A DNA stretch of 64,000 bases from contig JAVEET010000108.1 of the NCBI GenBank assembly GCA_030840295.1, forward strand, positions 1 to 64,000, given 5' to 3'. The stretch comes from Pseudonocardiales bacterium. GTDB taxonomy: Bacteria; Actinomycetota; Actinomycetes; Mycobacteriales; Jatrophihabitantaceae. The notes under the pieces were generated by a model. The model made no database searches. It had not been told where the DNA came from and was given only the letters and a program-made list of their open reading frames with translations. Both the position numbers and the translations under genes were made by a program. Positions within the stretch are counted from its first letter, which is position 1, and every line of letters begins with the position of its first letter. Shown one piece after another: positions 3,873-26,257 of the stretch.

Positions 3873-3903
3873 CACCGACGGAGAGCACCCGGAGCACGCG
3901 GGC

Positions 3904-4860: not shown

Positions 4861-4866
4861 GCGGCG

Positions 4867-5901: not shown

Positions 5902-5935
5902 GTTCGTCTGCCCTTCTACCTGTTGTCAGGCCTGG

Positions 5936-5954
5936 CGCAGACGCTGGGTCTGCG
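5936..5954. repeat. Stem-loop CGCAGAC-5-GTCTGCG between SDR and UxuA-like gene
   Basis: Perfect 7-base arms with a 5-base loop lie about 35 bases before the UxuA-like start. No U-run follows on either strand, so it is not a standard terminator. It may be an RNA-processing or stability element, or an operator. Confidence 0.35.
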
Positions 5955-6058
5955 TGCCGAGCCTATCGATCGACAGCTGCATGATGTCGCGCGGACCGAC
6001 GTAGCGGCGACCCGGAGCGGATTGAACGTCAGGCACCTTGTAACTCAGACCGGTCGAC

Positions 6059-7563: not shown

Positions 7564-7618
7564 GACGCTGCCTTCTGCTCGATTGGAGACCGGCGAACTC
7601 GGTCAGGACGGATCACGG

Positions 7619-9076: not shown

Positions 9077-9086
9077 CGCGGCCTGG

Positions 9087-11129: not shown

Positions 11130-11180
11130 CGTATGCGGCTCCCTGTGCATGTCGGAGGGAAGTCGTGCCGGAAATTGTGC

Positions 11181-11948
11181 TCAGATCGCGGTGTAAGCAC
11201 CATCGATCACGATCGACTGGCCGGTGAGGTAGGCCGAGGAATCCGAGCACAGAAACGTCACCAGACCGTCGAGGTCATGCGGCTCACCCATCCTTCCGAG
11301 CGGAATCATCGATCGCCACTGCTCGGCAAGTTCCGGATTCGACTCGGTGAACTCGCGGGTCATGTCGGACAGGAAGTAGCCCGGCGCGATCGCGTTCACC
11401 CGGATGCCGAGGTCAGCCCATTCCACCGCAAGAGCTTTCGTGAGCATCTCGACGCCGGCCTTGGACGCGTGATAGCTGGCTTGATGCTGCGGCACGTTGA
11501 CCACCTTCGCGGACATCGAGGATACGTTCACCACCACCCCGGGTGCCTGTGCGCTCCGGCAGCCACGGCCGAACGCCTGACAGGCGAGGAAGGTGCCGGT
11601 GAGGTTGACGTCGATGACCTTTTGCCACACTTTCAGTTCGGTGTCCAGGCTGTCCCCCCAGATGGTGATCCCGGCTGCGTTGATCAGGATCGTCGGTCTG
11701 CCGAGTCGTTGCGTCGCGATTCGGAAGCCGTCGGCAAGGGCGGTGTCGGACGTGACGTCCACGCTCACGCCGACCGTCTCGACGTCATGTTCCTTGGCCA
11801 GCTCTGCCGCATTGGCCTCGACCTGCTCCAGCAGATCGAAAAGCGCTATCCGCACGCCCTGTCGGGCAAGGGCGCGAGCCATGGACAAGCCGAGCCCGCG
11901 GGCGCCACCGGTGACGACGGCGATCTGGCCGAACAAGTCACTGCTCAT
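11181..11948 (-). CDS. SDR, polyol-dehydrogenase-like
   Basis: A 255-residue classical SDR with TGGARGLG (about 13-20), acidic FDLLEQ after strand two (NAD-type), NAAG, SSMSAK and YHASK. The C-terminus (TGQSIVIDGAYTAI) resembles arabitol/sorbitol dehydrogenase SDRs. A strong GGAGGGAGG ribosome site precedes the ATG at 11948. Placed between the transporter and the rhamnulose-phosphate enzymes, it may oxidise the imported polyol to the ketose that the kinase then takes. This is inference from context. Confidence 0.83.
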   Translation of the reverse strand: MSSDLFGQIAVVTGGARGLGLSMARALARQGVRIALFDLLEQVEANAAELAKEHDVETVGVSVDVTSDTALADGFRIATQRLGRPTILINAAGITIWGDSLDTELKVWQKVIDVNLTGTFLACQAFGRGCRSAQAPGVVVNVSSMSAKVVNVPQHQASYHASKAGVEMLTKALAVEWADLGIRVNAIAPGYFLSDMTREFTESNPELAEQWRSMIPLGRMGEPHDLDGLVTFLCSDSSAYLTGQSIVIDGAYTAI

Positions 11949-12035: not shown

Positions 12036-13025
12036 TCAGCAGCTGGCCTTGTAGGCTGCAGCCTTTCCTTCCGCGCTGTTGAGATTGTCCTTCGTGATGA
12101 TGCTGAACCCGGTCTTGATGGTGGGCGTCGTTGGCTCACCCTTCAGGGCCTTGATCGCCTGCTGCACACCGTCGATGCCGATGGTGCCCGGCTGCTGGGC
12201 GATGAGAGCCTGGACCGTGCCGTCCTGCAGGGCCTTGACCTGGTCCGGACCGGCGTCGAAGCCGACGATCTTGACCGAGTTCTGCTTGCCGGCCTGCCGG
12301 ATGCCGGTTGCGGCACCGGTCGCGGAGAACAGGTTCGAGGCGAAGATACCCACGATGTCAGGGTCCTTCTGCAGCGCCGCGCTCACGATCGAGGCCGCCT
12401 TGGCCGGGTCGTTCTGCGAGTACTGCACACCGAGGTACTGATACTTCGAGTCGGCCTTCGCAGCGTCGGCGAAACCCTTGTCGCGTGCGTCGGTGGTGCT
12501 GATACCAGGCTGCACGCCGACGCCGAGAACCTTGCCGCCGGCCGGTGCGAGCTTCTTGATCGCATCGAACGCGGCCTTGCCGCCGCCGCTGTTATCCGAG
12601 GCGATGGCCGAGACGGCGACCGAAGGGTCCTTGAGGGTGGTGTCGACCAGCACGACCTTGATGCCCTGTGCCTTGGCCTGGGCGATCGGCTGCTGCATCG
12701 CCGAGACATCGGTCGGCGCGATCAGGATCGCGTCCGGCTTGCTGGCGATGACCGATTGCAGGATCGGGGTCTGCAGGGTGGGGTCGAACTTCTGAGCCCC
12801 CTGCGTTGTGACGGTCGCACCCTCTGTCTTCGCCTCGGCCTGGATACCGCATTGCATGGTGATGTAGAAGGCGTCACCGGCAACACCCTGGATGAAGGCG
12901 AGCTTGTATGCCTTGCTGCCACCACCGCTAGAGGACGACCCACCGTTCTTGGACGAGCTGCAGGCAGCGGTCATGGTAAGGGCGACGAGCGCCGACCCCA
13001 CCACCATTGCGGTCCTTCGCTTCAT
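12036..13025 (-). CDS. Sugar ABC transporter substrate-binding lipoprotein (ribose/LacI-type fold)
   Basis: A 329-residue periplasmic-binding-protein-like protein. The N-terminus is basic (KRR), then hydrophobic, then a lipobox around MTAAC (cysteine near residue 21) and a serine/glycine linker, so it is a lipid-anchored extracellular protein. The body has the type I fold of RbsB/FrcB-like proteins (KLAFIQGVAGDAFY, AILIAPTDVSAM, FASNLFSATGA). The ATG at 13025 has GAGAGGAGA upstream and lies eleven bases after the permease stop. It defines the substrate specificity of the transporter, probably a pentose, hexose or polyol. Confidence 0.9.
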   Translation of the reverse strand: MKRRTAMVVGSALVALTMTAACSSSKNGGSSSSGGGSKAYKLAFIQGVAGDAFYITMQCGIQAEAKTEGATVTTQGAQKFDPTLQTPILQSVIASKPDAILIAPTDVSAMQQPIAQAKAQGIKVVLVDTTLKDPSVAVSAIASDNSGGGKAAFDAIKKLAPAGGKVLGVGVQPGISTTDARDKGFADAAKADSKYQYLGVQYSQNDPAKAASIVSAALQKDPDIVGIFASNLFSATGAATGIRQAGKQNSVKIVGFDAGPDQVKALQDGTVQALIAQQPGTIGIDGVQQAIKALKGEPTTPTIKTGFSIITKDNLNSAEGKAAAYKASC

Positions 13026-13036
13026 ACTTTCTCCTC

Positions 13037-14119
13037 TCAAGTTCTCCTCCCGCGGTGGGAGAGGAAGGGGAATCGATAGTGCTTGCGGCCACCGACGGCG
13101 GCTGCGCGACGGAGCTGATCGACGTAGACGACGGTGACCAGCACCGCTCCCACGACGACTTGTTGCCAGAACGGCTGAACGTTGATCTGGATGAAGCCGT
13201 TCTGCAGGACGATCGGGATGAACAGCCCGATGACTGTGCCGAAGACCGAGCCCACACCACCGAAGAGGCTGGTGCCACCGATCGCGACGCCCGCGATGAC
13301 GTTGAGCGCGGTGTTGGACTGGCCACCGATCGTCGTGGACTGGAAGAAGCCCAGGTTGAGAATTCCGGCGAAACCGGCGAGCAACCCGGCCAAGGCGTAG
13401 ACCTTGATGAGGTGCCGATCCACCTTCAGCCCGACCCGCCGCCCGGCCTCGGCATTGGAGCCGATCGCATAGGTGTGCAAACCGAAACGCGTCCGGTGCA
13501 GCAGCACGATGCCGGCTAGCACCACGACGCCGGCGACCACGGCCAGGGTGGGCACCTGACCAACGATGTTGCCGAAACCAACCTTGTTGACCAGGGTCTG
13601 CGGCGCGTCGCGGAGATCAAGACCCTTGGTCAGGATCTGCGCGAAGCCCAGGGCCGCGCTGAGCGAACCCAGCGTCACGATCAGCGGCGGCACGTTGGCT
13701 TTCGCTACGAGCACGCCGTTGAGCAGACCCCAGCCGAGACCGCACCCGCAGGCGACCAGCGTTCCCAACAGAACGGTGCCCCAACCCTGACCGCCCTGGG
13801 CTGCCATCACCTTGTCGGCAACCACACCGCTGAACACCAGCACACTGCCGATGGACAGATCGATGCCGCCGGTAATGATGACAAAGGTCATTCCGACACC
13901 CAGTACCGCGAGGATCGAGGTGTTCTGGACGATGCCGCGGATGTTGAACGGCGTGAGAAAGGTGCCGGGTCGAAGGATCGTGAAGATAGCTACGGTGACC
14001 GCGAGCAGCAGCACGATCTGCAGTGCCTGGATGCGGGCGATTCGCTGCCAGCGTCCGGCCGGTACATCCTCGACCGCTGCGGTGCCGGCGGCGGTCGGTG
14101 TCGTGTCGGCGAGGGTCAT
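13037..14119 (-). CDS. Sugar ABC transporter permease (RbsC/FrcC family)
   Basis: A 360-residue membrane protein with about nine to ten hydrophobic helices, a cytoplasmic N-terminus of about 40 residues, and the BPD_transp_2 signature region GGIDLSIGSVLVFSGVVA (about 95-112) and GRRVGLKV. The ATG at 14119 overlaps the ATPase stop (ATGA); the longer frame to 14386 is antisense-type arginine-rich sequence. It forms the membrane channel with the ATPase at 14116 and the lipoprotein at 12036. Confidence 0.9.
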   Translation of the reverse strand: MTLADTTPTAAGTAAVEDVPAGRWQRIARIQALQIVLLLAVTVAIFTILRPGTFLTPFNIRGIVQNTSILAVLGVGMTFVIITGGIDLSIGSVLVFSGVVADKVMAAQGGQGWGTVLLGTLVACGCGLGWGLLNGVLVAKANVPPLIVTLGSLSAALGFAQILTKGLDLRDAPQTLVNKVGFGNIVGQVPTLAVVAGVVVLAGIVLLHRTRFGLHTYAIGSNAEAGRRVGLKVDRHLIKVYALAGLLAGFAGILNLGFFQSTTIGGQSNTALNVIAGVAIGGTSLFGGVGSVFGTVIGLFIPIVLQNGFIQINVQPFWQQVVVGAVLVTVVYVDQLRRAAAVGGRKHYRFPFLSHRGRRT

Positions 14120-14874
14120 GATGCCTCCTGGGTGACCGCGCCGGTCATGGCTGCTACGAGCTGCTCCATCGACGTGTCCTCCTTGCGATAGGTCGCCACC
14201 CGGCGACCGCGCCACATCACGTGGATCCGGTCGGCGACGTCCATCACGTGCGGCATGGAGTGACTGATGAACACCACACCGATGCCCTCGGCGCTGACCC
14301 GGCGGATCAGATCGAGCACGTTTTTGGTCTGCACGACGCCCAGCGCGGCAGTCGGCTCGTCGAGAAAGATGACTTTCTGCGCCCACGCCGCCGCCCGCGC
14401 CACGGCGATGCCCTGCCGCTGGCCACCGGACATCGCCCCGACCGGCCCGTTGAGATTTCGCACGGTCGCACCCAGCTTCTCGAACGCCTCCCGACTGCCT
14501 TTGCGCATCGACCTGGAGTCCATGAAGCCGAGCCGGCCGAGTGGGCCGGTGCGCATCACCTCGCGGCCCAGGTACATGTTCTGTACCGGCGACAGATGAG
14601 GTGCGAGCGCCAGATCCTGGAAGACGGTCTCCATGCCCAACTTCCGAGCATCGACCGGCGAGGTCAAGTGCACCTGCTTGCCCTCGAAGATCAGCTGACC
14701 AGAGCTGGCGGGCTCCGTACCCGACATGATCCGCACGAGCGTGCTCTTACCGGCGCCATTGTCACCGATCAGCGCCACGACTTCACCGGCGTTGACGTCA
14801 AAGTTCGCGCCGGCCAACGCCTCGACGTGTCCGTACTGCTTCGAGATATCCCTTGCCTCGAGAATCGGAGCCAT
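14116..14874 (-). CDS. Sugar ABC transporter ATP-binding protein (single-domain, FrcA type)
   Basis: A 252-residue ATPase with one nucleotide-binding domain, unlike the double-domain RbsA. Walker A is GDNGAGKST (about 38-46), the signature is MSGGQRQG (about 145), Walker B FLDEPTAAL, and H-loop FISHSM. Start ATG at 14874 has GGAGGT seven bases upstream and lies in a TGATG overlap with the end of an 18-codon ORF. The single-domain form matches FrcA-like fructose/mannose/ribose transporters in which the ATPase homodimerises. Confidence 0.92.
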   Translation of the reverse strand: MAPILEARDISKQYGHVEALAGANFDVNAGEVVALIGDNGAGKSTLVRIMSGTEPASSGQLIFEGKQVHLTSPVDARKLGMETVFQDLALAPHLSPVQNMYLGREVMRTGPLGRLGFMDSRSMRKGSREAFEKLGATVRNLNGPVGAMSGGQRQGIAVARAAAWAQKVIFLDEPTAALGVVQTKNVLDLIRRVSAEGIGVVFISHSMPHVMDVADRIHVMWRGRRVATYRKEDTSMEQLVAAMTGAVTQEAS

Positions 14875-15010: not shown

Positions 15011-16003
15011 TCATGGCGCCAGCTCCCCACTTCCCCTCGGCACGAGGTGCAGGGGCGTCGTGATGGTCTGGGTCGGCATCTCATCGCCGGCCATGCGTCG
15101 CAGTAGCCGGTCCGCCGCAAGCCGGCCGATGGACTCAGGCGAATGGTCGATCACGGTGATCGGCGGGGTGAGCGCGTCGGCCATGGCGAAGTCACCGAAG
15201 GAGACGAACGCGATGTCGGTGCGACTCAGGCGATGAAGGGTGCTGAGCACCCTCAGCGAGCAGCGCGTGTTGGCACTGAAGATGGCGGTGGGCGGCTCGG
15301 GCGTGGCCAGCAGGGCCTCCACGATTTGGCCGCCGTCCGCGAGCGAGGGGTCCATGCCGATCACGTAGTCGTCCCGCATCGCAATGCCGGCGAGTTCCAG
15401 CGATTCCCGATAGCCGTCAAGTCGTGAGCGCGCGGTGTCGATACCGAGGTGGTCGCCCAGGTAGGCGATGCGCTTATGCCCGTGCGAGATCAGGTGATCG
15501 ACCCCCAATCGTGCGCCGGCGCGGTCATCGACCAGGACGGCGTCGGAGTCCAGGTTCACCGCGACCCGGTCGATGAAAACGACGGGACACGGGGCGGCCT
15601 TGAGGTGAGCGTGGTCGTGTGAGACAGACGCGATGATCAGCCCGGCTACGCGGCGCTGCAGCAGCCCGTCGATCACGATGTGTTCGCGGTCCACCAGCCG
15701 TTGTGTGCTGGCGACGATGACCGTCATGGCGCGGTCGAGGGCCATCCGCTCGATCTCGCCGATGACACTCGCGAAGAACGGGTCGCTGACCTCGTCTACG
15801 ACGACGCCGATCGTGTCGTCGGTACCGCGGCGCAGCGAACGGGCCAACGGATCCGGTCGGTAGCCAAGTTCTCGAACCGCCTTCTCCACCCGGTCCCGAG
15901 TATCTGATCCCACCTTGGTGTGGCCGTTGATGACCCGCGACGCCGTCTTGGTGCTGGTCGCTGCCAGCGCGGCCACGTCGCTGAGACGAACCCGGCGGGT
16001 CAT
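15011..16003 (-). CDS. LacI-family transcriptional repressor of the sugar/polyol locus
   Basis: A 330-residue LacI/GalR regulator. The N-terminal helix-turn-helix is RLSDVAALAATSTKTASRVI (about 6-25), followed by the hinge LGYRPDPLARSLR and a sugar-binding type I periplasmic fold from about residue 62. The ATG overlaps the stop of the 43-codon PfkB-like stub (ATGA). It is expressed from a promoter at 16264-16292 with two copies of GGTAATCGATGTC in the leader, and a third inverted copy before manA, which it probably binds. The effector is unknown, presumably the transported sugar or a phosphorylated intermediate. Confidence 0.92.
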   Translation of the reverse strand: MTRRVRLSDVAALAATSTKTASRVINGHTKVGSDTRDRVEKAVRELGYRPDPLARSLRRGTDDTIGVVVDEVSDPFFASVIGEIERMALDRAMTVIVASTQRLVDREHIVIDGLLQRRVAGLIIASVSHDHAHLKAAPCPVVFIDRVAVNLDSDAVLVDDRAGARLGVDHLISHGHKRIAYLGDHLGIDTARSRLDGYRESLELAGIAMRDDYVIGMDPSLADGGQIVEALLATPEPPTAIFSANTRCSLRVLSTLHRLSRTDIAFVSFGDFAMADALTPPITVIDHSPESIGRLAADRLLRRMAGDEMPTQTITTPLHLVPRGSGELAP

Positions 16004-16292: not shown

Positions 16293-16400
16293 GATGTCCA
16301 GTACGTTTCGTTCCGCTTACGTGACCATGCCGTTGCCGAGTTAGTGATGCCACAGTGCGGTGGACAATCGGTCATCTCGGGCACGCGCTACCGTGCGCGC

Positions 16401-16967
16401 GTGACCCGAACGAATCCATCGCTGCCTGCGCTCATCGTCTGCGGACCACCGGCGAGTGGCAAGTCCACGCTGGGGCGGGCGCTCGCCTCGAGACTCGGTG
16501 CCGCGCTCTTGGACCAGGACGTGCTGACCGGGCCTCTGACCGCGGTGGTCGCACAGCTGCTCGGATCCGATGACCTCGATAGCCCTGCCCTCGCCCGTGC
16601 GACGCGGGCAGCGAGATACGAAACGCTCGCCGCGGGAGCCCAGGACAACCTGCAGATCGGACGCGCGGTCGTGCTCGTTGCCCCGTACAGCACCGAACGA
16701 CGCGACCCGGTGGCCTGGAAACGACTGGCCGAACGGCTGTCCGATGCCGGCGGGTTGGCAACACTGGTGTGGCTGCGCGTGACAGGCGAGGAATTGCTGG
16801 CCCGCATGTCCGAGCGGGCCGCCGGCCGGGACCGGGACAAGCTCGGGGACCCGGCGGCCTACTTGGCGCGCACCGATCTCAGCGAGCCGATTGTGCCGCA
16901 CGTCGCGGTCGACGCAGCTGCTGACGTCGATGCGCAATGCGGGTTCGTATTAGCCCGCATCTCTTGA
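16401..16967 (+). CDS. Small P-loop kinase (AAA_33/gluconokinase-like)
   Basis: A 188-residue P-loop protein with Walker A GPPASGKST (about residues 14-22) and a mixed alpha/beta kinase fold like gluconate kinase or zeta-toxin-type AAA_33 proteins. LVAPYSTERRDP resembles the substrate-lid part of such kinases. It probably phosphorylates a small sugar or polyol, but this is inferred only from fold and context. GTG at 16401 is chosen because homologues begin shortly before the P-loop; an ATG at 16344 gives a poorly conserved extension. It is divergent from the lacI operon and upstream of manA. Confidence 0.7.
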   Translation: MTRTNPSLPALIVCGPPASGKSTLGRALASRLGAALLDQDVLTGPLTAVVAQLLGSDDLDSPALARATRAARYETLAAGAQDNLQIGRAVVLVAPYSTERRDPVAWKRLAERLSDAGGLATLVWLRVTGEELLARMSERAAGRDRDKLGDPAAYLARTDLSEPIVPHVAVDAAADVDAQCGFVLARIS

Positions 16968-16986: not shown

Positions 16987-17016
16987 TTGACGAAAGCTGC
17001 ATCCGCGCGCCACAGT
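16987..17016 (+). promoter_or_regulatory. Candidate promoter of the manA operon
   Basis: TTGACG at 16987-16992 and CACAGT at 17011-17016 are 18 bases apart. The -35 box is good and the -10 box weak. The predicted start would fall just before operator O3. Confidence 0.35.
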
Positions 17017-17032
17017 GCTCTCCGTAAGCATG

Positions 17033-17048
17033 CGTGACATCGATTACC
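17033..17048 (+). promoter_or_regulatory. Probable LacI operator O3 before manA
   Basis: CGTGACATCGATTACC is the exact reverse complement of the first 16 bases of O1. It lies 24 bases before the preferred manA start and downstream of the candidate promoter. It implies that the LacI protein at 15011 also controls the manA operon. Confidence 0.65.
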
Positions 17049-17071
17049 CACCGAGCGTCAGAGGGACTCCC

Positions 17072-18115
17072 GTGCCGAATTCTGCAGCCGTAGGGGCGCT
17101 ACCTCCCATTGCGTTGCCCGCCAACCAACCGGCCGACCGGTTCTACCTGGGTGGCGACCGCATCGCTGCCTTCCGCGGCACCGCAGCACTGGGGGATCAC
17201 GTACCCGAGGACTGGGTCGCGTCGACGACGACCGTCGCCGGCTTCGACGACGTCGGGCTGACGCATCTCGACGACGGCGGCACGCTCCGCGCCGCGATAC
17301 GGGATGACCCGATCAACTGGCTCGGGCCCGATCATTCGAACAAGTACGGGGCCGATCCGGCTCTGCTGGTCAAGCTTCTTGACGCCGGCGAACGGCTACC
17401 GGTACACGTCCACCCAGACGACGCCTTCGCCCGAAGCCACTTGTCCTGCCGCACCGGTAAGACGGAGTCGTGGATCATCCTCGACGCCGACCCGGAAGCC
17501 CAGGTGTACTTAGGCTTCCGCGAGGACGTCGAGCCGGCACAGCTGTCCAGGTGGGTCGCGGACCAGGATCGAGAAGCCATGCTGTCGGCGCTGCACCCTA
17601 TCGATGTGCGGCCCGGCGATACGGTCTACGTCCCGGCCGGACTCCCGCACGCCATCGGAGCCGGCGTCTTCCTGCTCGAGCTCCAGCAAGCCGCGGATCT
17701 TTCCCTGCTGCTCGAGTACGCCGGCTTCGCGATCGACGGGACACGCGACGGCCATCTCGGAATTGGATTTGACGCGGCCTTGCCCTGCGTCCGGCATGAT
17801 GCGTTGTCCGCTGCCGAGTTGGAAAAACTGTGCGGCAAATGGGACGACGGGCACATCTTCCCTTCCGCAGCGGACCAGTTCTTCCGCGCCGAGCGCATCG
17901 CAGGAGAGGTTGACACCGTCCTGCAGCCCGGGTTTTCGGTGCTGGTCGTGACAGCGGGCTCCGGGCAACTCGCGTGGATCGATGCCGACGGCGGGCTACT
18001 GGACGTGCACGCGGGAGCCACCGTGGCCGTGCCGTTCAGTGCAGGACCGGTGCAGCTTCGCGGTGATCTCGAGGTCCTTCGTTGCCGTCCCCCGCGGCTC
18101 GATGTCAGCCGCTGA
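17072..18115 (+). CDS. manA: Mannose-6-phosphate isomerase, class I (ManA)
   Basis: A 347-residue cupin-fold zinc enzyme that interconverts mannose 6-phosphate and fructose 6-phosphate, or a related aldose/ketose phosphate. Zinc-site residues are in PVHVHPDD (about 109-116) and in the PAGLPHAIGAGVFLLELQ segment (about 190-207), as in ManA. The GTG at 17072 has GAGGGA six bases upstream. An earlier in-frame GTG at 17015 would place operator O3 inside the coding region, so it is rejected. It is the first gene of a four-gene plus-strand operon. Confidence 0.87.
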   Translation: MPNSAAVGALPPIALPANQPADRFYLGGDRIAAFRGTAALGDHVPEDWVASTTTVAGFDDVGLTHLDDGGTLRAAIRDDPINWLGPDHSNKYGADPALLVKLLDAGERLPVHVHPDDAFARSHLSCRTGKTESWIILDADPEAQVYLGFREDVEPAQLSRWVADQDREAMLSALHPIDVRPGDTVYVPAGLPHAIGAGVFLLELQQAADLSLLLEYAGFAIDGTRDGHLGIGFDAALPCVRHDALSAAELEKLCGKWDDGHIFPSAADQFFRAERIAGEVDTVLQPGFSVLVVTAGSGQLAWIDADGGLLDVHAGATVAVPFSAGPVQLRGDLEVLRCRPPRLDVSR

Positions 18116-18127
18116 CTACTTCGGCCA

Positions 18128-19627
18128 ATGACCGCCCTCAGCACGGAGGCGCTCGGGCATCTCGACCCGCGCGTACCTATCCCCAGCTATGACCGCAGCC
18201 GATGCAGCATCGGCATTGTGCACTTCGGTGTCGGGGCCTTTCACCGCTCACATGAAGCCATGTACCTCGACAGTCTCATGAACCAAGGCCAGGCGCATGA
18301 CCTGGGTATCTGCGGCGTTGGACTCCTGTCGGCCGACGCCGCGATGCGCGACGCGCTCGCCGAGCAGGACTGCCTCTACACGCTCGTACTCAAGCACCCC
18401 GACGGGCGATGGGAGCCACGCGTCATCGGTTCCATCCTCGACTACCTCTACGCACCAGAGGACCACGCCAAGGTGCAGGAGCGTCTCGTCAACCCCGAGA
18501 CCAAAATCGTGTCGCTGACGATCACAGAGGGCGGCTACAACCTCCACCGGGTCACCGGCGACTTCGACGCCAATGATCCCGCTATCGTCGCGGACCTGGA
18601 TCGGGACGCCATCCCACGTACCGTGTTCGGATTCGTGGTGCGGGCCCTGGCCGAACGCCGACGGGCCGGCATCGCCCCATTCACGATCATGTCCTGCGAC
18701 AATATGCCCTCCAACGGCCAGGTCGGCCGGCGCGCGTTCGTGGCGTTCGCAGAACTCATCGACTCTGAACTCGCGACGTGGATCCGTGACCACGTCGACT
18801 TCCCCAATTCGATGGTTGATCGCATCACGCCCGCTACGACCGATGAGGATCGTGCGGCGCTCGCCAGCCGCTTTGACATCGACGACGCATGGCCGGTGCT
18901 GTGCGAACCGTTCAGCCAGTGGGTTCTGGAGGACCAGTTCGCTTCGGGACGGCCACGCTTCGAGGACGTCGGCGTACAGGTTGTGGGTGATGTCGAACCG
19001 TACGAATTGATGAAGCTTCGCCTGCTGAACGCGAGCCATCAGGCACTGTGTTACGCCGGCTACCTCGCAGGGCACCGGCTCGTTCACGACGTCGCTCGTG
19101 ACCCGCTGTTCGCGCAGTTCCTTCTCGATTACATGAAGCTGGAAGCCATACCGAGCCTGGACCCGGTGCCGGGCATCGACCTGCAGGCCTACGCGGACAA
19201 CCTCATCGAACGGTTCTCCAATCCTGAGGTCCGTGACACCGTCGCCCGGCTCTGTGCCAACAGTTCCGACCTCATCCCGAAATTCATTCTTCCGGTCCTG
19301 CGGTTCCAGTTGGACTGCGGCGGCAGCATCTCGCGCTGCACCGCAGTCCTTGCAAGCTGGGCCCGCTACGCCGAAGGTACCGACGAACAAGGCCAGCCGA
19401 TTCACATCGTCGACCCGCTGCGTGACCGGATGACGCCGTCCGCATTACGCCAGCGGAGCGATTCGACCGCATTCTTGCGAAACCGCGATGTGTTCGGTGA
19501 CCTGATCGACAACGAGCGCTTCGTGAGCGCCTATGTCGCTGTGCTCACGAGTCTGCACGAGGCTGGAGCGCGTTTCACCCTCAGCCACCTGGCCGACCTC
19601 ACCTCGGCCACGACGGCCCACTCCTGA
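18128..19627 (+). CDS. Mannitol 2-dehydrogenase family (polyol-specific long-chain dehydrogenase)
   Basis: A 499-residue enzyme of the mannitol/fructuronate/arabinitol dehydrogenase family. N-terminal Rossmann entry is IVHFGVGAFHRSHEAMY (about 30-46), TITEGGYN (about 130) is characteristic, and the catalytic lysine-asparagine-histidine motif appears as KLRLLNASH (about 296-304). It oxidises a polyol such as mannitol, D-arabitol or sorbitol to a ketose, or does the reverse with tagaturonate-type substrates. It starts twelve bases after manA. With the SDR and xylulokinase that follow, D-arabitol or xylitol to xylulose 5-phosphate is a natural guess. Confidence 0.88.
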   Translation: MTALSTEALGHLDPRVPIPSYDRSRCSIGIVHFGVGAFHRSHEAMYLDSLMNQGQAHDLGICGVGLLSADAAMRDALAEQDCLYTLVLKHPDGRWEPRVIGSILDYLYAPEDHAKVQERLVNPETKIVSLTITEGGYNLHRVTGDFDANDPAIVADLDRDAIPRTVFGFVVRALAERRRAGIAPFTIMSCDNMPSNGQVGRRAFVAFAELIDSELATWIRDHVDFPNSMVDRITPATTDEDRAALASRFDIDDAWPVLCEPFSQWVLEDQFASGRPRFEDVGVQVVGDVEPYELMKLRLLNASHQALCYAGYLAGHRLVHDVARDPLFAQFLLDYMKLEAIPSLDPVPGIDLQAYADNLIERFSNPEVRDTVARLCANSSDLIPKFILPVLRFQLDCGGSISRCTAVLASWARYAEGTDEQGQPIHIVDPLRDRMTPSALRQRSDSTAFLRNRDVFGDLIDNERFVSAYVAVLTSLHEAGARFTLSHLADLTSATTAHS

Positions 19628-19640
19628 AGGAGGCACATAC

Positions 19641-20369
19641 ATGAAGGATTTCAATGGCAAGACCATCCTCGTCACCGGCGCGAGCGGAGGCATCGGTGGA
19701 GCGACTGTGCGCAAGCTTGCCGAACGCGGCGCGAACGTGGTGGCAGCCGGCCGCGTCGAGGCAGGACTCGACAAGATCGCCACCGACACCGGTGCGCGGA
19801 TCCTGCCGTTCGACCTGACCTCAGAAGACAGCGTCGCGTCCGCGATCGGGGACCTCGACCTGTGGGGCGTGGTCAACTGCGGCGGCTACGGCGGCGAAAT
19901 CGCCAGCCCACAGGACACCGACATCGCCGTGTTCGACAAGGTCATCGCCATCAACGCTCGGGGCGCGCTGCTCGTCACCAAGTACGCCGCGCGAACCATG
20001 ATCCGCCTCGGGCAGGGAGGGTCAATCGTGAATGTTTCGAGCCAGGCCAGCCTCGTCGCGCTCAACGGTCACATCTCCTACGGCGCGTCCAAGGCCGCCC
20101 TCGACAACATCACGCGCGTCTCGGCTCTGGAGCTCGGCCAGTACGGGATCCGGGTCAACAGCGTCAACCCGACCGTGGTCATGACCGAGATGTCGGCGTT
20201 CTACTGGGGTCGCCCCGAGATCGGGGAACCCTTCCTCGAGCAGATGCCGCTGCACAAGTGGGCCACCGAGGACGACATCGCCGGTCCGATCGTGTTCCTG
20301 CTCAGCGACGAGGCGGCCATGATCAGCGGCGTCAGCCTGCCCATCGACGGCGGCTACACCGCACGCTGA
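19641..20369 (+). CDS. SDR, L-xylulose reductase (DCXR)-like
   Basis: A 242-residue SDR with TGASGGIG (about 12-19), SSQAS and YGASK catalytic residues, and NSVNPTVVMTEM (about 173-184), a signature I associate with dicarbonyl/L-xylulose reductase and mouse lung carbonyl reductase. Basic AGRVEAG after strand two fits NADPH. It would interconvert xylitol and L-xylulose or a similar pair. AAGGAGG lies seven bases before the ATG; the frame extension to 19533 lies inside the previous gene. Confidence 0.83.
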   Translation: MKDFNGKTILVTGASGGIGGATVRKLAERGANVVAAGRVEAGLDKIATDTGARILPFDLTSEDSVASAIGDLDLWGVVNCGGYGGEIASPQDTDIAVFDKVIAINARGALLVTKYAARTMIRLGQGGSIVNVSSQASLVALNGHISYGASKAALDNITRVSALELGQYGIRVNSVNPTVVMTEMSAFYWGRPEIGEPFLEQMPLHKWATEDDIAGPIVFLLSDEAAMISGVSLPIDGGYTAR

Positions 20370-20412: not shown

Positions 20413-21900
20413 ATGACCGCTTCACTGACGCTGCTCGGCATCGATCTCGGCACCAGCTCGGTGAAAGTGGTGCTGATCGATCCCGCCGGGACGGTGCTGG
20501 CCCAGGCCGATGCCGACTACGACGTGCACCGGCCACATCCCGGCTGGGCCGAGTCCGACCCGGAGCAATGGTGGACTGCCGTCCGCGACTCCGTGTCGCG
20601 GGCGCTCGCGCAGCTTCCCGGCGCCACTCCGGCCGGCATCGGACTTTCCGGTCAGATGCACGGTGTGGTCCTCTGCGACGCAGCCGGCACGCCGGTTCGC
20701 CCAGCCATCCTGTGGGCAGACGCGCGCGCCGAGGACGAGCTGACGGTGTACCGCTCATTGGGTCCGGGCGTCCTGGCCAGGCTCGCCAACCCACTGAGTC
20801 CCGGGATGGCCGGACCCGTCCTCGGCTGGCTGCACCGAAACGAAGCCGATGCCGTCGCCTCGGCCCGCCACGCGTTACAACCGAAGGACTGGATCCGCGC
20901 GCGGCTGACCGGCCGGTTCGCCTCCGAGCCCAGTGATGCCTCGGCGACCCTGCTCTACGACGTCCTTGCCGACGGCTGGGACGAGACGGTGGTGGCAGCG
21001 CTCGGGATCCGCCGCGACCTGTTGCCTCCGCTGCTCGCCTTCTCCGGTGTCTGCGCGGGCACATTGCGGAGCGAGGTGGCGGCCGAACTCGCGCTGCCGC
21101 CGGACATTCCGGTCGCGGCGGGCGCGGGTGACACTGCGGCCGCCGCACTCGGTTCCGGACTGTTCGAGCAGGGCACCGTCCAGCTCACCATCGGTACGGG
21201 CCTACAGATCGTGACTCCGGTACCTCCGCCGACGGCAGACACCCTGAGCGGCGCACACCGGCCGGTCACCCACCTGTATCGCTCGGCGACCAGCGACGGG
21301 TGGTACGCCATGGCCGCAGGCCTCACCGGGGGCCAGACCTTGGACTGGGTTCGGCGGATGCTCGGAGTCGAGTGGTCGGAGCTGTATGCCGCGGCAGGTA
21401 GACAGGCGCGGATGGACGATCCGGTGTTCCTGCCGCAGCTGGTGGGTGAGCGGAGCCCGTATCTGGACACCTCTCTGCGCGGCGCGTGGACCGGCTTAGA
21501 TGCCCGGCACGACAGGACGGCCCTGCTCTACTCAGCACTGGAGGGCGTGGCATTCGCCGCCGCCGATGCCCTCGACGCCCTACCCGGCATCCCCGCCCTC
21601 GGACGGGATCTCCGGCTGGCCGGCGGCGGCACCACCACCCCGGCCTGGCGCGGGCTGCTGGCCGACGTACTCGACGCCCGGCTGCATGCGGTCGACGTTC
21701 CGGGCGCCTCGGCCCGAGGCGCTGCCTTACTGGCCGCGCAGGCGGCCGGGCTCGTCACGGCCCACGAGTTGACCGAGGTGGCCCGTCCGAATACGACTGT
21801 GATCGCATCGCCCGGTCCCGGTGTCGATCTGTTGCGACACCGGCGGGCTCTGTACCTCCGCACCCTGACCGCGCTGCGCCCGCTACGTTCCTCCGCTTAG
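20413..21900 (+). CDS. xylB: Xylulokinase
   Basis: A 495-residue FGGY kinase with DLGTSSVK (about 10-17), GLSGQMHG (about 77-84), AILWADARA and a C-terminal GGGTTTPAWRGLLADVL region, all typical of XylB, which makes D-xylulose 5-phosphate for the pentose-phosphate pathway. It is the last gene of the manA operon, and its TAG overlaps the convergent aldolase stop by three bases. The ribosome site is weak. Related FGGY kinases for other ketoses cannot be excluded. Confidence 0.9.
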   Translation: MTASLTLLGIDLGTSSVKVVLIDPAGTVLAQADADYDVHRPHPGWAESDPEQWWTAVRDSVSRALAQLPGATPAGIGLSGQMHGVVLCDAAGTPVRPAILWADARAEDELTVYRSLGPGVLARLANPLSPGMAGPVLGWLHRNEADAVASARHALQPKDWIRARLTGRFASEPSDASATLLYDVLADGWDETVVAALGIRRDLLPPLLAFSGVCAGTLRSEVAAELALPPDIPVAAGAGDTAAAALGSGLFEQGTVQLTIGTGLQIVTPVPPPTADTLSGAHRPVTHLYRSATSDGWYAMAAGLTGGQTLDWVRRMLGVEWSELYAAAGRQARMDDPVFLPQLVGERSPYLDTSLRGAWTGLDARHDRTALLYSALEGVAFAAADALDALPGIPALGRDLRLAGGGTTTPAWRGLLADVLDARLHAVDVPGASARGAALLAAQAAGLVTAHELTEVARPNTTVIASPGPGVDLLRHRRALYLRTLTALRPLRSSA

Positions 21901-22796
21901 GTACGGGCCAGCCGACCGTCGAGGATGGCCTCGAGCTCCCGCAGTCGGGGCAGAGCCCGGTTGGTCAGTAGCGACTCCCGAAGCTCCGGCGCCACCGCGA
22001 GGCTGTCCTTCCACAGCGACCGCCCTGCCATCGCACCGCTTGCGCCGTTCGCAAGGGCGATCTCGACCTGCTTCACGAAGGTCTCGTGATCGACACCTGC
22101 GGAAAGCACGGCCCAGGGCACGCCGTCCGCAGCGTGGGTTACCGCGGCGCAGCCCTCGGCTGAACCCGGGTAGGCCAGTTTCAGCACCTTGGCGCCGGCG
22201 GCGCGCGAGATGCGCGCGGCTTCTGCCACCAGCCGCGGGAAGGCCTGCCGGTACTGCTCGTCGGTCTCGCCGTCGAGCCGGTAGGTGAGGACCTCAACGA
22301 TCAGCAAGACCCCCTCGACCGTGCACGCACGGACGAGGTCGCGGATGTCCTGGGCCACCCGGGAGTCGATGTCCTGCTTGTCCGGTCGCATGTAGAACAG
22401 CATCTTGGCCACGTCGCCGCCCAGATCCCGCACCGTTTTGGGTGTCACACCATCGACGTAGCGGGTGTAACGCAGACCGTCGACGGTGTCAAAGCCGGAC
22501 GCGTCCATCCCCACGACGAGGGCAGTGTCGGCAAGCAGCGTGCCGTCGTCAACCACCTTGGGGAGGGCGACCTCGGGGTCCAGCAGGATCGCTGGAGCGT
22601 AGTTTGCCAGGTAGGTGACGATGTCGGACTTGGCCTCGGCAAGTTGCTCAGTAGTCACCGAGCCCGGGCCGTCCGGCGCGTCGGTCATCACCGCCTTCAT
22701 GCTGTTGCGTTGGTCAGCGGCGACGATCAGTATCTTGCTCCCCGCGGTGAGGATGCGTGCCATCGCTCGGCGTTCGAGCGTCGTCAGTTTGTTCAT
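21897..22796 (-). CDS. Class I aldolase of the LacD/YihT (tagatose-bisphosphate / sulfofructose-phosphate) family
   Basis: A 299-residue TIM-barrel aldolase. VAADQRNSM (about 27-35), the Schiff-base lysine region KVLKLAYPG (about 201-209), PWAVLSAGV and GASGAMAGRSLWKD match tagatose-1,6-bisphosphate aldolase LacD and E. coli YihT. It would cleave a ketose phosphate into DHAP and an aldehyde. AGAAGGAGA precedes the ATG. It follows an FGGY kinase and LacI regulator, so those two proteins likely make and sense its substrate. The exact sugar is unknown. Confidence 0.82.
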   Translation of the reverse strand: MNKLTTLERRAMARILTAGSKILIVAADQRNSMKAVMTDAPDGPGSVTTEQLAEAKSDIVTYLANYAPAILLDPEVALPKVVDDGTLLADTALVVGMDASGFDTVDGLRYTRYVDGVTPKTVRDLGGDVAKMLFYMRPDKQDIDSRVAQDIRDLVRACTVEGVLLIVEVLTYRLDGETDEQYRQAFPRLVAEAARISRAAGAKVLKLAYPGSAEGCAAVTHAADGVPWAVLSAGVDHETFVKQVEIALANGASGAMAGRSLWKDSLAVAPELRESLLTNRALPRLRELEAILDGRLART

Positions 22797-22815
22797 GGTT
22801 TTCTCCTTCTAATAT

Positions 22816-22842
22816 GGTGGAACGGCTGGTGGAACGGCTGGT
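22816..22842. repeat. Tandem 12-base repeat (2.25 copies) between kinase and aldolase genes
   Basis: The unit GGTGGAACGGCT occurs at 22816-22827 and 22828-22839, followed by GGT. It fills most of the 47-base spacer between the FGGY kinase stop and the aldolase ribosome site. It looks like a recent slippage duplication and may vary between strains. Confidence 0.7.
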
Positions 22843-22843
22843 C

Positions 22844-24214
22844 TCACCGCTGCGCATTGGTCTTGGCGACGGGCTCCAGGAGCCTGCTCGCAAAGAGGGC
22901 GGCACCGTAGGCCGTGTCCTGGGACCGTTGGGAGACCACAAGGCCCGGGAGCACGGCGGAGCGGGCGCGTCGGACGCTCGCCATGGCGGCCCAGCCCCCG
23001 GTGAGCACGGTCGCGCGGGCGGGCGGGACCTCCTGGTCCATCGCGTCGATGAGCAGCCTGATTTCGTCGTTTCCGTGTCGGAGGACTGCCCCGAAAATCT
23101 CGGCCGGACTTGCTCCATCACCGCGAACGGTAAGACGGAGGACGCCGTCGTCGTTGCGCGCACCGCGGACTTCGATCGCCCCGTCTGCAAGGGACCCTTC
23201 GAACGGCAGAGCGAGTACCCGCGCATCGAGCTGATCGCGACCTATCGAGTCCACGATGCCGGCGAGCTGCAGGGCACGACGCATGAGGATCCCGCTTTTC
23301 ACACCCGCGACGAGGACGTGCTGACCGGGGACGACGTGCCGAACCGAGTTGATCAGCCGCGACGCGAGCCGGGAGCGCGCTTCGAGTGACGGTGGGGCGT
23401 CCAGCACCCGGAGCAGCACCTCGGCGGTACCCATCGAAGCGTGGTAACGATCGTCCGGGATCGCTCCGCCGGAGACGGCTGAGACGAGGTGGTCGTGGCC
23501 GGCGACGGTCACCCGTGCGCCGCCGAAAGCGGCCGGAAGCCATTCGGCGTCCGCCGTGCCCAGGTCCGTGCCCGCGTCCGTTAGGGGCGGCAGGAAGTCC
23601 GGCGTGACGCCGAGGTAGTCCATCATTTCGGGCCAGGGCTTGCCGCTGTCCTGGTCGAGCAGACCAGTCCGTGAGGCGACGGAGTATTCGCTCACGGCCC
23701 GCGCCCCGAGGGCCGCGGCAACGAACTCGGGCAGGTTGAACCATCGCAGTCCGCCGAACCCGATCCCGTTCTCGCGAAGGTTCAGGAGCTTGACGACGGA
23801 GACCTGGACGCCTACGGGAAGCCCGGTGCGTCCTGCGAACTCCGCGGCCAGGTGCGACGGCAGCGCCTCGACCTGATCTCGGCCGCGCGGATCGAACCAC
23901 GCGATTGCGGGCGCTGCGGCCTTGCCGGCGGGATCAACGAGCAGACCACTTTCGCCCATCCCGGAGATCGCGATCGCAGCGACGGAGGGATTGAGATCAT
24001 CGGTCAGGGTCCTCAGCCGCTCGGCCGTGGCGACAAGGAGTTCACGTACGGTTTCCAGAAGGTCGTCGGCGGTCAGCTCGGTCGTTCCGGCTGCGCCTGA
24101 CCGCCACGGTGTCGGCCGCTGCTCGATAAGGACTTCAGTGCCGTCCTCCCGGGCGATCAGTATCTTGATGCCCGTGCTGCCGAGATCGATTCCGGCGACT
24201 AGTCGCCTGCTCAA
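22844..24214 (-). CDS. FGGY-family carbohydrate kinase
   Basis: A 456-residue FGGY kinase with DLGSTGIK (about 10-17), ISGMGESG (about 83-90), AIAWFDPRG and a C-terminal LTGGWAAMASVRRARSA region. It does not clearly fit xylulokinase, glycerol kinase or rhamnulokinase, so the sugar is unassigned. The start is TTG at 24214, overlapping the LacI stop (TTGA), which is unusual but in the right place before the ATP fold. It is the middle gene of a LacI-kinase-aldolase operon. Confidence 0.83.
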   Translation of the reverse strand: MSRRLVAGIDLGSTGIKILIAREDGTEVLIEQRPTPWRSGAAGTTELTADDLLETVRELLVATAERLRTLTDDLNPSVAAIAISGMGESGLLVDPAGKAAAPAIAWFDPRGRDQVEALPSHLAAEFAGRTGLPVGVQVSVVKLLNLRENGIGFGGLRWFNLPEFVAAALGARAVSEYSVASRTGLLDQDSGKPWPEMMDYLGVTPDFLPPLTDAGTDLGTADAEWLPAAFGGARVTVAGHDHLVSAVSGGAIPDDRYHASMGTAEVLLRVLDAPPSLEARSRLASRLINSVRHVVPGQHVLVAGVKSGILMRRALQLAGIVDSIGRDQLDARVLALPFEGSLADGAIEVRGARNDDGVLRLTVRGDGASPAEIFGAVLRHGNDEIRLLIDAMDQEVPPARATVLTGGWAAMASVRRARSAVLPGLVVSQRSQDTAYGAALFASRLLEPVAKTNAQR

Positions 24215-25254
24215 CTGATGCTCACTTTCCCAGCCCTGCGGCGCGGTTGCGCAGCCAACTCCGCGATCCGTATGAGGTGCGAGGACCGTTGTACGAATCC
24301 AGTCGGCACCTGCAGATCGACCCTGTCCAGAACGGGATTCTGGAACAGCTGGGTCAGACGATCGAAGGCGAGCGCCCCCATCGAATATGGGTCCTGGTCG
24401 ATGCAGCTGATCGTGGGGTCCACCGCGTCGGCCAGCGAGAAATCGCCGAAGGACACGACCGCGAGGTCAGTCCGGCCTAGGCTATGCGTCTCCGAAATGA
24501 CCGCGGAAGCATGGCGGGCGTTTGAGAGGAACAGCGCCGAAGGCGGCTCCGGTAGGGCGAGAACGGTTCGAAGGGCGGCCCGGGCCGCACCGCTGCCGAG
24601 GGGAACATCCGGCACTAGCTCCGCATCAACAGCGAGGCCGTGTTCGACGAGCACGTCCTCGTAGGCGGCTCGGCGCCTACGAGCGGTCTGGATTCGGCGA
24701 TCGAAACCGATCAGCCCGATGCGGCGGTGACCGCTCGCCACCAGCCGCTCGACGCCAGATCGGGCCGCGGCGTAATCGTCCACCGTCACCGAGTCAAAGC
24801 CGGGCAATGAACGGTCCACCGTCACCACCGGCATCGACGTCCGGTAGGGCTCCAGAAATTCGAGCTGCTCACCCACGGGCGCGAGGATGATGCCGCGGAC
24901 GTGCTGACTGGCCAGGCGAAGCAGCTGGTTGCGCTCCCGCTCGGGGTCAAAGCCCGAACTGCACACGACGACCCCTAGGCCGAGGCTGATCGCGCGCTGC
25001 TCGACCGCGCTCACGAGAGCGGAGAAGAACACGTCGTCGATGGAGTCGACGACCACTCCGACGGCGTTTCCAGCCCCGGTCTTGAGCGATCGGGCCATCG
25101 TGTTGGGTACGTAGTTCAATTCGACGATCGCGGTCTGGACGCGGTCGCGCAGCTCGGGCGCTACCGTGTCCAAGCCGTTGACCACCCGCGAGACCGTCTT
25201 GATGCTGACCTTCGCGGCTGTCGCGACATCTCGAATGCTGGGTCGATCGCCCAC
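24211..25254 (-). CDS. LacI-family repressor of the kinase-aldolase operon
   Basis: A 347-residue LacI/GalR regulator with helix-turn-helix SIRDVATAAKVSIKTVSRVV (about 6-25), hinge LNYVPNTMARSLK, and a type I periplasmic sugar-binding domain. GTG at 25254 is chosen because AGAGGA lies five bases before it. The longer TTG start at 25272 would sit inside the operator. Two perfect GACAACGTTGTC palindromes upstream suggest tight autoregulation of this gene and the downstream kinase and aldolase. Confidence 0.9.
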   Translation of the reverse strand: MGDRPSIRDVATAAKVSIKTVSRVVNGLDTVAPELRDRVQTAIVELNYVPNTMARSLKTGAGNAVGVVVDSIDDVFFSALVSAVEQRAISLGLGVVVCSSGFDPERERNQLLRLASQHVRGIILAPVGEQLEFLEPYRTSMPVVTVDRSLPGFDSVTVDDYAAARSGVERLVASGHRRIGLIGFDRRIQTARRRRAAYEDVLVEHGLAVDAELVPDVPLGSGAARAALRTVLALPEPPSALFLSNARHASAVISETHSLGRTDLAVVSFGDFSLADAVDPTISCIDQDPYSMGALAFDRLTQLFQNPVLDRVDLQVPTGFVQRSSHLIRIAELAAQPRRRAGKVSIS

Positions 25255-25265
25255 TTCGTTCCTCT

Positions 25266-25305
25266 CGGACAACGTTGTCTCGGCTGGTCGGACAACGTTG
25301 TCTCG
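25266..25305 (-). promoter_or_regulatory. Tandem LacI operators, two GACAACGTTGTC palindromes
   Basis: The 17-base sequence CGGACAACGTTGTCTCG occurs at 25266-25282 and again at 25289-25305. Each holds a perfect 12-base palindrome with the central CG of LacI-family sites, and centres are 23 bases apart. They occupy the space between the predicted -10 box and the ribosome site of the lacI gene at 24211. Confidence 0.85.
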
Positions 25306-25306
25306 T

Positions 25307-25336
25307 ATCCTCGCCTGTCCGCCAAGGGGCTGTCAA
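25307..25336 (-). promoter_or_regulatory. Predicted promoter of the LacI-kinase-aldolase operon
   Basis: On the minus strand TTGACA (complement of 25331-25336) and GAGGAT (complement of 25307-25312) are 18 bases apart. The -35 box is perfect and the -10 box is weak. The operators begin one base downstream. Confidence 0.5.
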
Positions 25337-25492
25337 GTCGGGTGGCGATGAGGCGAACCGGACGTCGCCCGTTCAGCAACGGGGCTGCCGACTCGAGCTG
25401 GCCGGTGACTTCGGACCGGGCGAACAGTGCGCCGCCGATGCCAGCTCCCGAGGCATAGCGAGGACACCATCGTGGCGGTGGCAGGGGCGGAT

Positions 25493-26257
25493 TCAGACCA
25501 GCGTATGGCCGCCGTCGACGTAGAGCACCTGACCGGTGATGTAGCCCGCGTCCTCCGAGGCGAAGAACGCGACCGCGGCCGCGATGTCCTCCGGCACGCC
25601 ACCCCGGCGCACTGGAACGAACGCCGCCACACTGTCACGCATCGCCTCGATGCTCGACCCGATCCGCGCAGCCGTCGCAGCCGTCATCGCCGTCTCGATG
25701 AAGCCTGGCGCGATCGCATTCGAAGTCACCCCGAACGGGCCGAGCTCGATCGCGACCGTCTTGGTGAAACCCTGCAGGCCGGCCTTGGCAGCGGCGTAGT
25801 TCGCCTGACCCCGATTGCCCAGCGCCGACATGGACGACATCGACACGACCCGGCCGTAGCGAGCCGCCACCATGTGCCGCTGCGCCGCTTGCGTGCACAG
25901 GAATGCGCCCCGCAGGTGCACGCTCATCACAGTCGACCAGTCATCATCGGTCATCTTGAACAGCATCGCATCGCGCGTCACCCCGGCGTTGTTCACTAGA
26001 ATGTGCAGTCCGCCAAAGGTCTCGGCCACCGTGTCGACCGCGGCCTGCACCTGATCGCGCTCCGATACGTCCGCGGCCAGACCGATCGCCCGGCCACCGG
26101 CCGCAACAATCTCTGCGGCAACTTCCTGCGCAGCGGCTTGCTGCCGGTCCAGAACAGCCACCAGCGCGCCGTCGGCCGCTAGCCGCCGCGCCACTGCTGC
26201 GCCAATCCCCTGGGCCGCACCAGTCACCAGGGCAACCCTCGGCTCAACACCCGCCAC
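25493..26257 (-). CDS. SDR, FabG-like 3-oxoacyl reductase
   Basis: A 254-residue classical SDR with TGAAQGIG (about 12-19), NNAG, SSMSA and YAAAK, and GQVLYVDGG near the end. It is closest in appearance to FabG/PhaB-type 3-oxoacyl-ACP or -CoA reductases and to 3-hydroxyacyl-CoA dehydrogenases; VLDRQQA after strand two suggests NAD. It is the last gene of a four-gene operon (MFS, SDR, SDR, SDR), starting six bases after the previous stop. A beta-oxidation or secondary reduction role is likely. Confidence 0.83.
   Translation of the reverse strand: MAGVEPRVALVTGAAQGIGAAVARRLAADGALVAVLDRQQAAAQEVAAEIVAAGGRAIGLAADVSERDQVQAAVDTVAETFGGLHILVNNAGVTRDAMLFKMTDDDWSTVMSVHLRGAFLCTQAAQRHMVAARYGRVVSMSSMSALGNRGQANYAAAKAGLQGFTKTVAIELGPFGVTSNAIAPGFIETAMTAATAARIGSSIEAMRDSVAAFVPVRRGGVPEDIAAAVAFFASEDAGYITGQVLYVDGGHTLV

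Follow-up and report, generated by a model that had tools for sequence, protein, structure and literature searches.

A compact gene module resides on the minus strand of a 64,000-nucleotide stretch of DNA from a Pseudonocardiales bacterium (contig JAVEET010000108.1, positions 1 to 64,000; hereafter the window). It is an operon in which the gene of a LacI-family repressor (LacI_2, 24211-25254) is followed, in the order of transcription, by those of an orphan FGGY-family carbohydrate kinase (22844-24214) and of a class I ketose-phosphate aldolase of the DeoC/LacD family (21897-22796). The module is real and conserved. Its parts are ordinary, and their combination is new as far as shown by a literature search which, in the portions of the sources available, returned no account of an FGGY-aldolase pairing and one related locus (PMC5507952). 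We propose with moderate confidence, on the grounds of sequence comparisons, that the operon provides the kinase and the aldolase of a pathway for a ketose, either D-tagatose or D-mannoheptulose, and is repressed by its own LacI.

The three genes are tightly packed. The TTG start of the kinase gene, already called in the original prediction made from the sequence alone, overlaps the lacI stop, and agrees with the start of the Rhodococcus orthologue. The aldolase gene starts 47 bases past the kinase gene, with a good ribosome-binding site, and its 3' end overlaps by 4 bases the end of a convergent xylulokinase-like gene. Upstream of lacI, two exact copies of the 12-bp palindrome GACAACGTTGTC were located, copy 1 at 25291-25302 and copy 2 at 25268-25279, with a start-to-start distance of 23 bases, as had been claimed. 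They are the sole identical perfect 12-bp palindromes less than 60 bases apart in the window, and none of 200 windows simulated by a first-order Markov model had an identical pair so close. LacI_2 carries the LacI helix-turn-helix (PF00356) and the Peripla_BP_3 ligand-binding domain (PF13377), both above the Pfam cut-offs, and with a palindromic operator near its own start has the hallmarks of the LacI family. The mechanical open reading frame reaches 25272, where its TTG start falls within one of the two palindromes; for this reason, and because the Rhodococcus start is in the same place, the gene likely starts at the GTG at 25254, which is preceded by GAGAGGAA and lies about 14 bases downstream of operator copy 2. 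The sequence TTGACA-N18-GAGGAT (25307-25336, minus strand; TTGACA at 25331-25336), reported as a promoter, is indeed present. It is a weak candidate, because GAGGAT matches TATAAT, by eye, at 3 of 6 positions, and a consensus scan of the 21700-25600 interval returned no sigma-70-like promoter. The first palindrome starts after a spacing of 4 bases from GAGGAT, and not one base after it as had been stated.

GACAACGTTGTC was found in 16 of the 118 loci searched, and in all 13 loci having a LacI_2 orthologue. The copies of Rhodococcoides fascians (L045) are found between a divergent P-loop kinase gene and lacI, within the FGGY gene, and immediately 5' of the aldolase, one at each place. Loci L115 and L116 have one copy some 130-140 bases before a series of genes on a single strand, headed by a manA-like homologue and continuing with ATP-binding cassette (ABC) transporter, short-chain dehydrogenase/reductase (SDR), FGGY and aldolase genes; the single match in L103 is distant from the module. 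The recurrence of GACAACGTTGTC in the loci of relatives supports the notion that it is a genuine operator, predicted to be bound by LacI_2, and that the module is autoregulated.

The aldolase (PF01791, 78.7 bits) has conserved catalytic residues and the LacD/YihT fold. Its AlphaFold model (confidence score, pLDDT, 93.7) is matched in structure comparison by LacD, YihT and a sulfohexulose-1-phosphate aldolase, which are 22-26% identical to it, so that the likeness to LacD and YihT originally noticed holds at about 24% identity and a shared fold. Residues Lys131, Glu168, Lys206 and Arg259 are shared with LacD and YihT in the alignment, and we take Lys206 to be the Schiff-base position. Position 172 is Tyr as in LacD, and is Arg in the YihT group. 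No active-site residue could be linked, from the sources available, to a distal phosphate so as to discriminate a 1-phosphate from a 1,6-bisphosphate. Roles for the Lys and Glu residues of LacD-type enzymes are named in the available part of PMC9007349. The phylogeny against YihT and LacD that had been advised was run on 29 of the 80 loci described below plus the window. In the resulting 64-row tree the aldolase family is one clade (98/92), joined to Rhizobiales forms (100/99), and both LacD (100/100) and the YihT samples fall outside it; the separation stands, the deepest split is weak. The outcome that would have counted against the original reading, an aldolase grouping with enzymes of established substrate that no kinase supplies, was not obtained. 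Compared with the LacD tagatose-1,6-bisphosphate aldolase, the window protein has the same fold, catalytic Lys and Glu, and Schiff-base Lys, but differs by its low identity, its separate clade, and a score of 63.3 bits on the LacD equivalog TIGR01232, whose cut-off is 432.2; membership in LacD is ruled out by the score and the phylogeny. More distant actinobacterial relatives of the DeoC/LacD family (L009-L024; 30-36% identity), which are common in the same order, make up another group, separate in the tree from YihT, LacD and the window family.

The kinase is recognized as an FGGY enzyme by the FGGY_N domain (76.8 bits), the full-length FGGY fold (TM-scores, normalized to the query length, of 0.74-0.83 among 50 matches listed), and Asp241, which aligns with XylB Asp233 and GlpK Asp246 in the catalytic Asp column, common to six of the seven E. 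coli kinases displayed, RhaB being the exception. No Pfam match to FGGY_C was obtained. None of the named FGGY classes scored above the curated cut-off of its NCBIfam equivalog, the best being XylB (74.9 bits versus 380.25). In a tree including the kinases of 24 of the 80 aldolase loci and eight E. coli references (XylB, LyxK, FucK, RhaB, GlpK, AraB, LsrK and YgcE), the orphan kinase forms its own clade on a long stem, and is therefore assigned to none of the E. coli classes; because a number of the reference branches are long, its placement beside AraB is untrustworthy. The orphan kinase thus shares with the E. coli enzymes the fold and the catalytic Asp column, but differs from them by its own clade and the lack of an FGGY_C match, and the earlier statement that it is of no clear named class is borne out. 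A paralogous kinase (53%) occurs in a Microbacterium cluster near L082 (L140, 2514-13257), next to ABC genes sharing the pocket type described below, and to manA-like, DUF4432, 1-phosphofructokinase-like kinase, class II aldolase and, by eye, DhnA/LsrF-like aldolase genes.

The pairing of kinase and aldolase is widespread. A scan of one genome per species yielded 80 loci, some on short contigs, with aldolases 59-96% identical, and the aldolase loci span 23 named actinomycete genera. Beside the aldolase reside genes for LacI (77 of 80), P-loop kinase (70), FGGY kinase (66), ABC transporter (55), mannitol-type dehydrogenase (46), the SDR type termed SDR_d (41), PRK09270-type kinase (28), AGE isomerase of D-mannose-isomerase-like type (10) and manA-like proteins (2). 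In 73 of 87 loci the FGGY gene precedes the aldolase on the same strand, at a distance of no more than 320 bases. Kinase and aldolase share one stop-free frame in six loci among 86 sources (L051, L052, L096, L097, L104 and L109); in all six the aldolase retains its own start codon, and internal initiation is possible. IolC-DUF2090 of myo-inositol catabolism is a precedent for such single-frame arrangements, though its substrate differs, and IolC is of PfkB type, unlike FGGY. In the accessible portion of PMC9007349 it is described as a fusion between a sugar kinase and a LacD-like aldolase, which catalyzes consecutive steps. An FGGY-aldolase pair was also found in a metagenome bin labelled Pseudomonadota (L094, 10001-10891), reflecting either mis-binning or transfer.

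Other sugar genes surround the module in the window. On the minus strand lie those of a CUT2 ABC transporter, coding for the sugar-binding protein (12036-13040), the permease (13037-14116; 56% identical to the L032 permease) and the ATPase (14116-14874; PF00005), followed by a second LacI-family repressor, LacI_1 (15011-16003), identified by profile match. On the plus strand lie genes encoding a gntK-like P-loop kinase (AAA_33 profile match; 16344-16967), which we propose as the second kinase of the pathway, a mannose-6-phosphate-isomerase-like protein (17015-18115; TIGR00218 58.6 bits, below the cut-off; PDB 1qwr, E 7e-16), a polyol dehydrogenase of mannitol-2-dehydrogenase type (18128-19627; PDB 1lj8, E 8.8e-139), an L-xylulose-reductase-like SDR (19641-20369; PDB 1pr9, E 1.3e-43; counterparts in 41 of the 80 loci), and the convergent xylulokinase-like FGGY kinase (20413-21900; TIGR01312 349.9 bits), which groups with E. 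coli XylB. The presence of ABC, P-loop kinase, manA-like, dehydrogenase and SDR genes together at 12.0-20.4 kb makes the module the regulated core of a wider cluster for sugar catabolism, which many soil actinobacteria share. The description of the module as self-contained holds in part: it seems to suit the regulation, not the pathway, because an ABC transporter, a second kinase of P-loop type, a mannitol-type dehydrogenase and further enzymes co-occur with it. In other loci P-loop kinases frequently carry a fused sugar-phosphatase domain of the HAD family (L077, 7247-8503; L032, 6411-7631), an odd pairing of kinase and phosphatase. A second sugar cluster of the window (3829-11948) includes DUF4432, UxuA-like, SDR, class II aldolase, rhamnulokinase-like, aldolase-SDR fusion and SDR genes; its SDR_b, SDR_c and class II aldolase types recur beside FGGY-aldolase pairs in Herbiconiux, Mycetocola and Agromyces.

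Clues to the substrate come from the binding protein. The best PDB match of the window protein is 5dkv (198.6 bits; the next match scores 121.6), and the Rhizobium binding protein encoded next to the aldolase matches the same entry at 547.8 bits. Twelve pocket positions, taken to be those of the ribose-binding protein, were compared. All twelve residues are identical among 17 distinct cluster proteins from the window, Rhizobiales and other actinomycetes, although overall identity between the actinomycete proteins and those of Rhizobium amounts to no more than 37-44%. The rows compared comprise 11 proteins hand-picked by genus from 43 family members, plus L032, the second Microbacterium copy, the two Rhizobiales proteins and a further set, several members of which duplicate other rows; L170, having no usable binding protein, was dropped, and the figure of 17 distinct proteins is our own count. 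In turn, 26 control binding proteins (four of E. coli, and 22 encoded in the genome of the window and in six relatives) share 2-8 of the 12 residues, and are 18-33% identical to the Rhizobium protein. At the level of the sequence, the pocket points to the D-tagatose/D-mannoheptulose class. The two-step route from a ketose to dihydroxyacetone phosphate (DHAP) put forward in the original prediction, by way of a kinase and a class I aldolase, thus remains the best reading in view of the adjacent and fused genes, and the ketose, then given as unknown, is no longer wholly so.

The Rhizobiales relatives link the module to a predicted pathway. The window aldolase is 41-44% identical to five Rhizobiales plasmid forms among the matches listed, called 'tagatose-bisphosphate aldolase' in the plasmid records. 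In the three plasmid loci examined the aldolase lies beside an ABC transporter, a regulator with a sugar-binding domain and a kinase gene annotated as ROK. The two kinases profiled are ROK proteins fused to an AAA_33 P-loop domain according to Pfam, and the idea that the Rhizobium kinase is a mis-annotated FGGY was ruled out by BLASTP as well. In the part of PMC5507952 available, Avi_5339 of Agrobacterium vitis is said, through an unpublished observation, to bind mannoheptulose, whose likeness to D-tagatose is noted; a mannoheptulose utilization locus is predicted in Rhodobacteraceae bin08, and a ROK kinase, a P-loop kinase and a COG3684 aldolase are proposed to yield DHAP and erythrose-4-phosphate. 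The bin08 locus, as far as described there, shares with the window a CUT2 ABC transporter, an Avi_5339-type binding protein, a DeoC/LacD (COG3684) aldolase and two kinases, one a small P-loop enzyme. The first kinase is ROK in bin08, FGGY in the window, where a LacI regulator with its own operators is an addition; actinomycetes add polyol dehydrogenases, isomerase-like genes and kinases fused to HAD domains. Binding protein, aldolase and P-loop kinase of the predicted pathway are thus found in the window, the ROK kinase is not. We read the cluster as a putative actinobacterial variant of the PMC5507952 pathway, in which the orphan FGGY kinase would take the place of ROK.

In the model proposed, LacI_2 bound at the paired operators would repress the operon until an effector relieves it. 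The substrate would be a ketose configured at C3 and C4 as in D-tagatose, either D-tagatose itself or D-mannoheptulose, and would enter through the adjacent CUT2 transporter; alternatively, it may be produced in the cell by oxidation of the matching polyol, mediated by the mannitol-type dehydrogenase or an SDR, or by an isomerase acting on an aldose. Phosphorylation by the orphan FGGY kinase together with the P-loop kinase would probably give the 1,6- or 1,7-bisphosphate of the ketose, from which the aldolase, working through a Lys206 Schiff base, would release DHAP along with glyceraldehyde-3-phosphate from tagatose, or erythrose-4-phosphate from mannoheptulose. We infer the substrate, the positions and order of the phosphorylations and the substrate of the second kinase. 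Two phosphorylations before cleavage are favoured because, to our knowledge, the substrates of LacD-family enzymes carry a distal anionic group. Alternatively, a 1-phosphate may be cleaved first, and the aldehyde then phosphorylated by the P-loop kinase. A narrower version, in which D-mannoheptulose, perhaps formed from the heptitol perseitol by the mannitol-type dehydrogenase, is phosphorylated to the 1,7-bisphosphate by a functionally novel FGGY kinase together with a P-loop kinase, and cleaved to DHAP and erythrose-4-phosphate, with kinase and aldolase on a single polypeptide in some species, is put forward tentatively and, taken as a whole, is doubtful.

Several data weigh against the D-tagatose/D-mannoheptulose proposal. 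The identity of 5dkv with Avi_5339, the Agrobacterium relative of the Rhizobium binding protein, in an entry naming D-tagatose, is an assumption. Mannoheptulose binding by Avi_5339 depends, in the text of PMC5507952 at hand, on the unpublished observation mentioned. Part of the pocket contrast between cluster and control proteins may reflect kinship, because the controls are more distant overall, and pocket identity could stem from common descent without an identical ligand. No copy of GACAACGTTGTC, allowing up to 2 mismatches, was found at the P-loop kinase and transporter genes of the window, which lie in separate transcription units, beside another LacI. The FGGY gene is absent from 14 of the 80 loci, 12 of them of Arthrobacter or Pseudarthrobacter, and searches of whole genomes at E 1e-15 found no relative in 12 of the 14, while four positive-control genomes were matched; this implies that the aldolase can work without the FGGY enzyme. 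The P-loop kinase is retained in all 14 loci, and a PRK09270-type kinase occurs in 13 of them. Thus, the first kinase varies (FGGY, ROK, perhaps PRK09270), and the P-loop kinase and the aldolase are constant. Lastly, D-fructose would be the simpler explanation of the mannitol-type dehydrogenase and D-mannose-isomerase-like genes.

This last point underlies an unlikely alternative, in which D-fructose arises from D-mannitol or D-mannose and is phosphorylated by the FGGY enzyme as a ketohexokinase; cleavage of fructose-1-phosphate by the aldolase would yield DHAP and D-glyceraldehyde, the latter being the substrate of the P-loop kinase. The frequency of the mannitol-2-dehydrogenase-type gene (46 of 80 loci) agrees with it, and HPr of the phosphotransferase system was not found in the genome. 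A mannitol-to-fructose-1-phosphate route via ketohexokinase operates in Haloarcula, according to the accessible part of PMC11519228. The AGE enzymes of 10 of the 80 loci match the D-mannose isomerase model below its cut-off, but E. coli YihS also reaches 500.9 bits on that model, so that the label is loose. The 5dkv/Avi_5339-type pocket and the anionic distal group of known LacD-family substrates argue in the opposite direction; moreover, the genome has a gene of the 1-phosphofructokinase family above the curated cut-off, and fructose-1-phosphate would therefore not need the window aldolase. The L-xylulose-reductase-like SDR and the xylulokinase-like kinase adjacent to the module would fit a pentulose, such as L-xylulose or L-ribulose, phosphorylated at C1 by the FGGY enzyme and cleaved to DHAP and glycolaldehyde. 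Rhamnulokinase and fuculokinase are FGGY kinases acting at C1. Yet, the known substrates of LacD/YihT-type aldolases are hexuloses, D-xylulose could be already served by the XylB-like kinase, and no mannitol-type polyol dehydrogenase lies beside the aldolase in the three Rhizobiales versions examined, all of which makes a pentulose quite improbable.

That kinase and aldolase act on different substrates and are merely co-regulated is very unlikely. The 14 loci keeping the aldolase without FGGY, and the second Microbacterium cluster, in which the FGGY paralogue is paired with manA-like, class II aldolase and 1-phosphofructokinase-like kinase genes, are compatible with it, but the six single-frame fusions and the adjacent arrangement in 73 of 87 loci are not easily accommodated. 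The possibility, raised early on by the likeness to YihT, of a sulfosugar (sulfofructose) pathway of the sulfo-Embden-Meyerhof-Parnas (sulfo-EMP) kind found no support. YihT, the sulfofructose-1-phosphate aldolase, and the sulfohexulose-1-phosphate aldolase are among the nearest solved proteins, with YihT matched in fold, length and catalytic residues, and the AGE enzymes belong to the YihS family. But the window aldolase falls in a well-supported clade apart from YihT and from a sulfo-EMP-type Arthrobacter plasmid aldolase, Tyr172 replaces the Arg of the YihT group, and the kinase is FGGY rather than PfkB. No sulfolactaldehyde enzyme, YihU- or SlaB-like partner or PfkB kinase was found among the cluster genes profiled (14.1-25.3 kb), in keeping with the earlier remark that no sulfosugar-specific partner was seen. 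We reject a sulfosugar role in view of the phylogeny and the partners absent from these genes, and any chance left to it is extremely slim. The Arthrobacter plasmid locus (L122, 6049-10149), with a PfkB kinase, a YihT-clade aldolase, a succinate-semialdehyde-type dehydrogenase and a TauE exporter, resembles instead the actinobacterial sulfo-EMP layout.

If the D-tagatose/D-mannoheptulose proposal is correct, a concrete function would be assigned to an orphan FGGY subfamily and to a family of aldolases. Both enzymes would be linked with a transporter for whose binding protein the structure of a relative is known, in a route for rare C6 or C7 ketoses. Mannoheptulose is abundant in avocado. The single-frame kinase-aldolase fusions may find use in making rare sugars.

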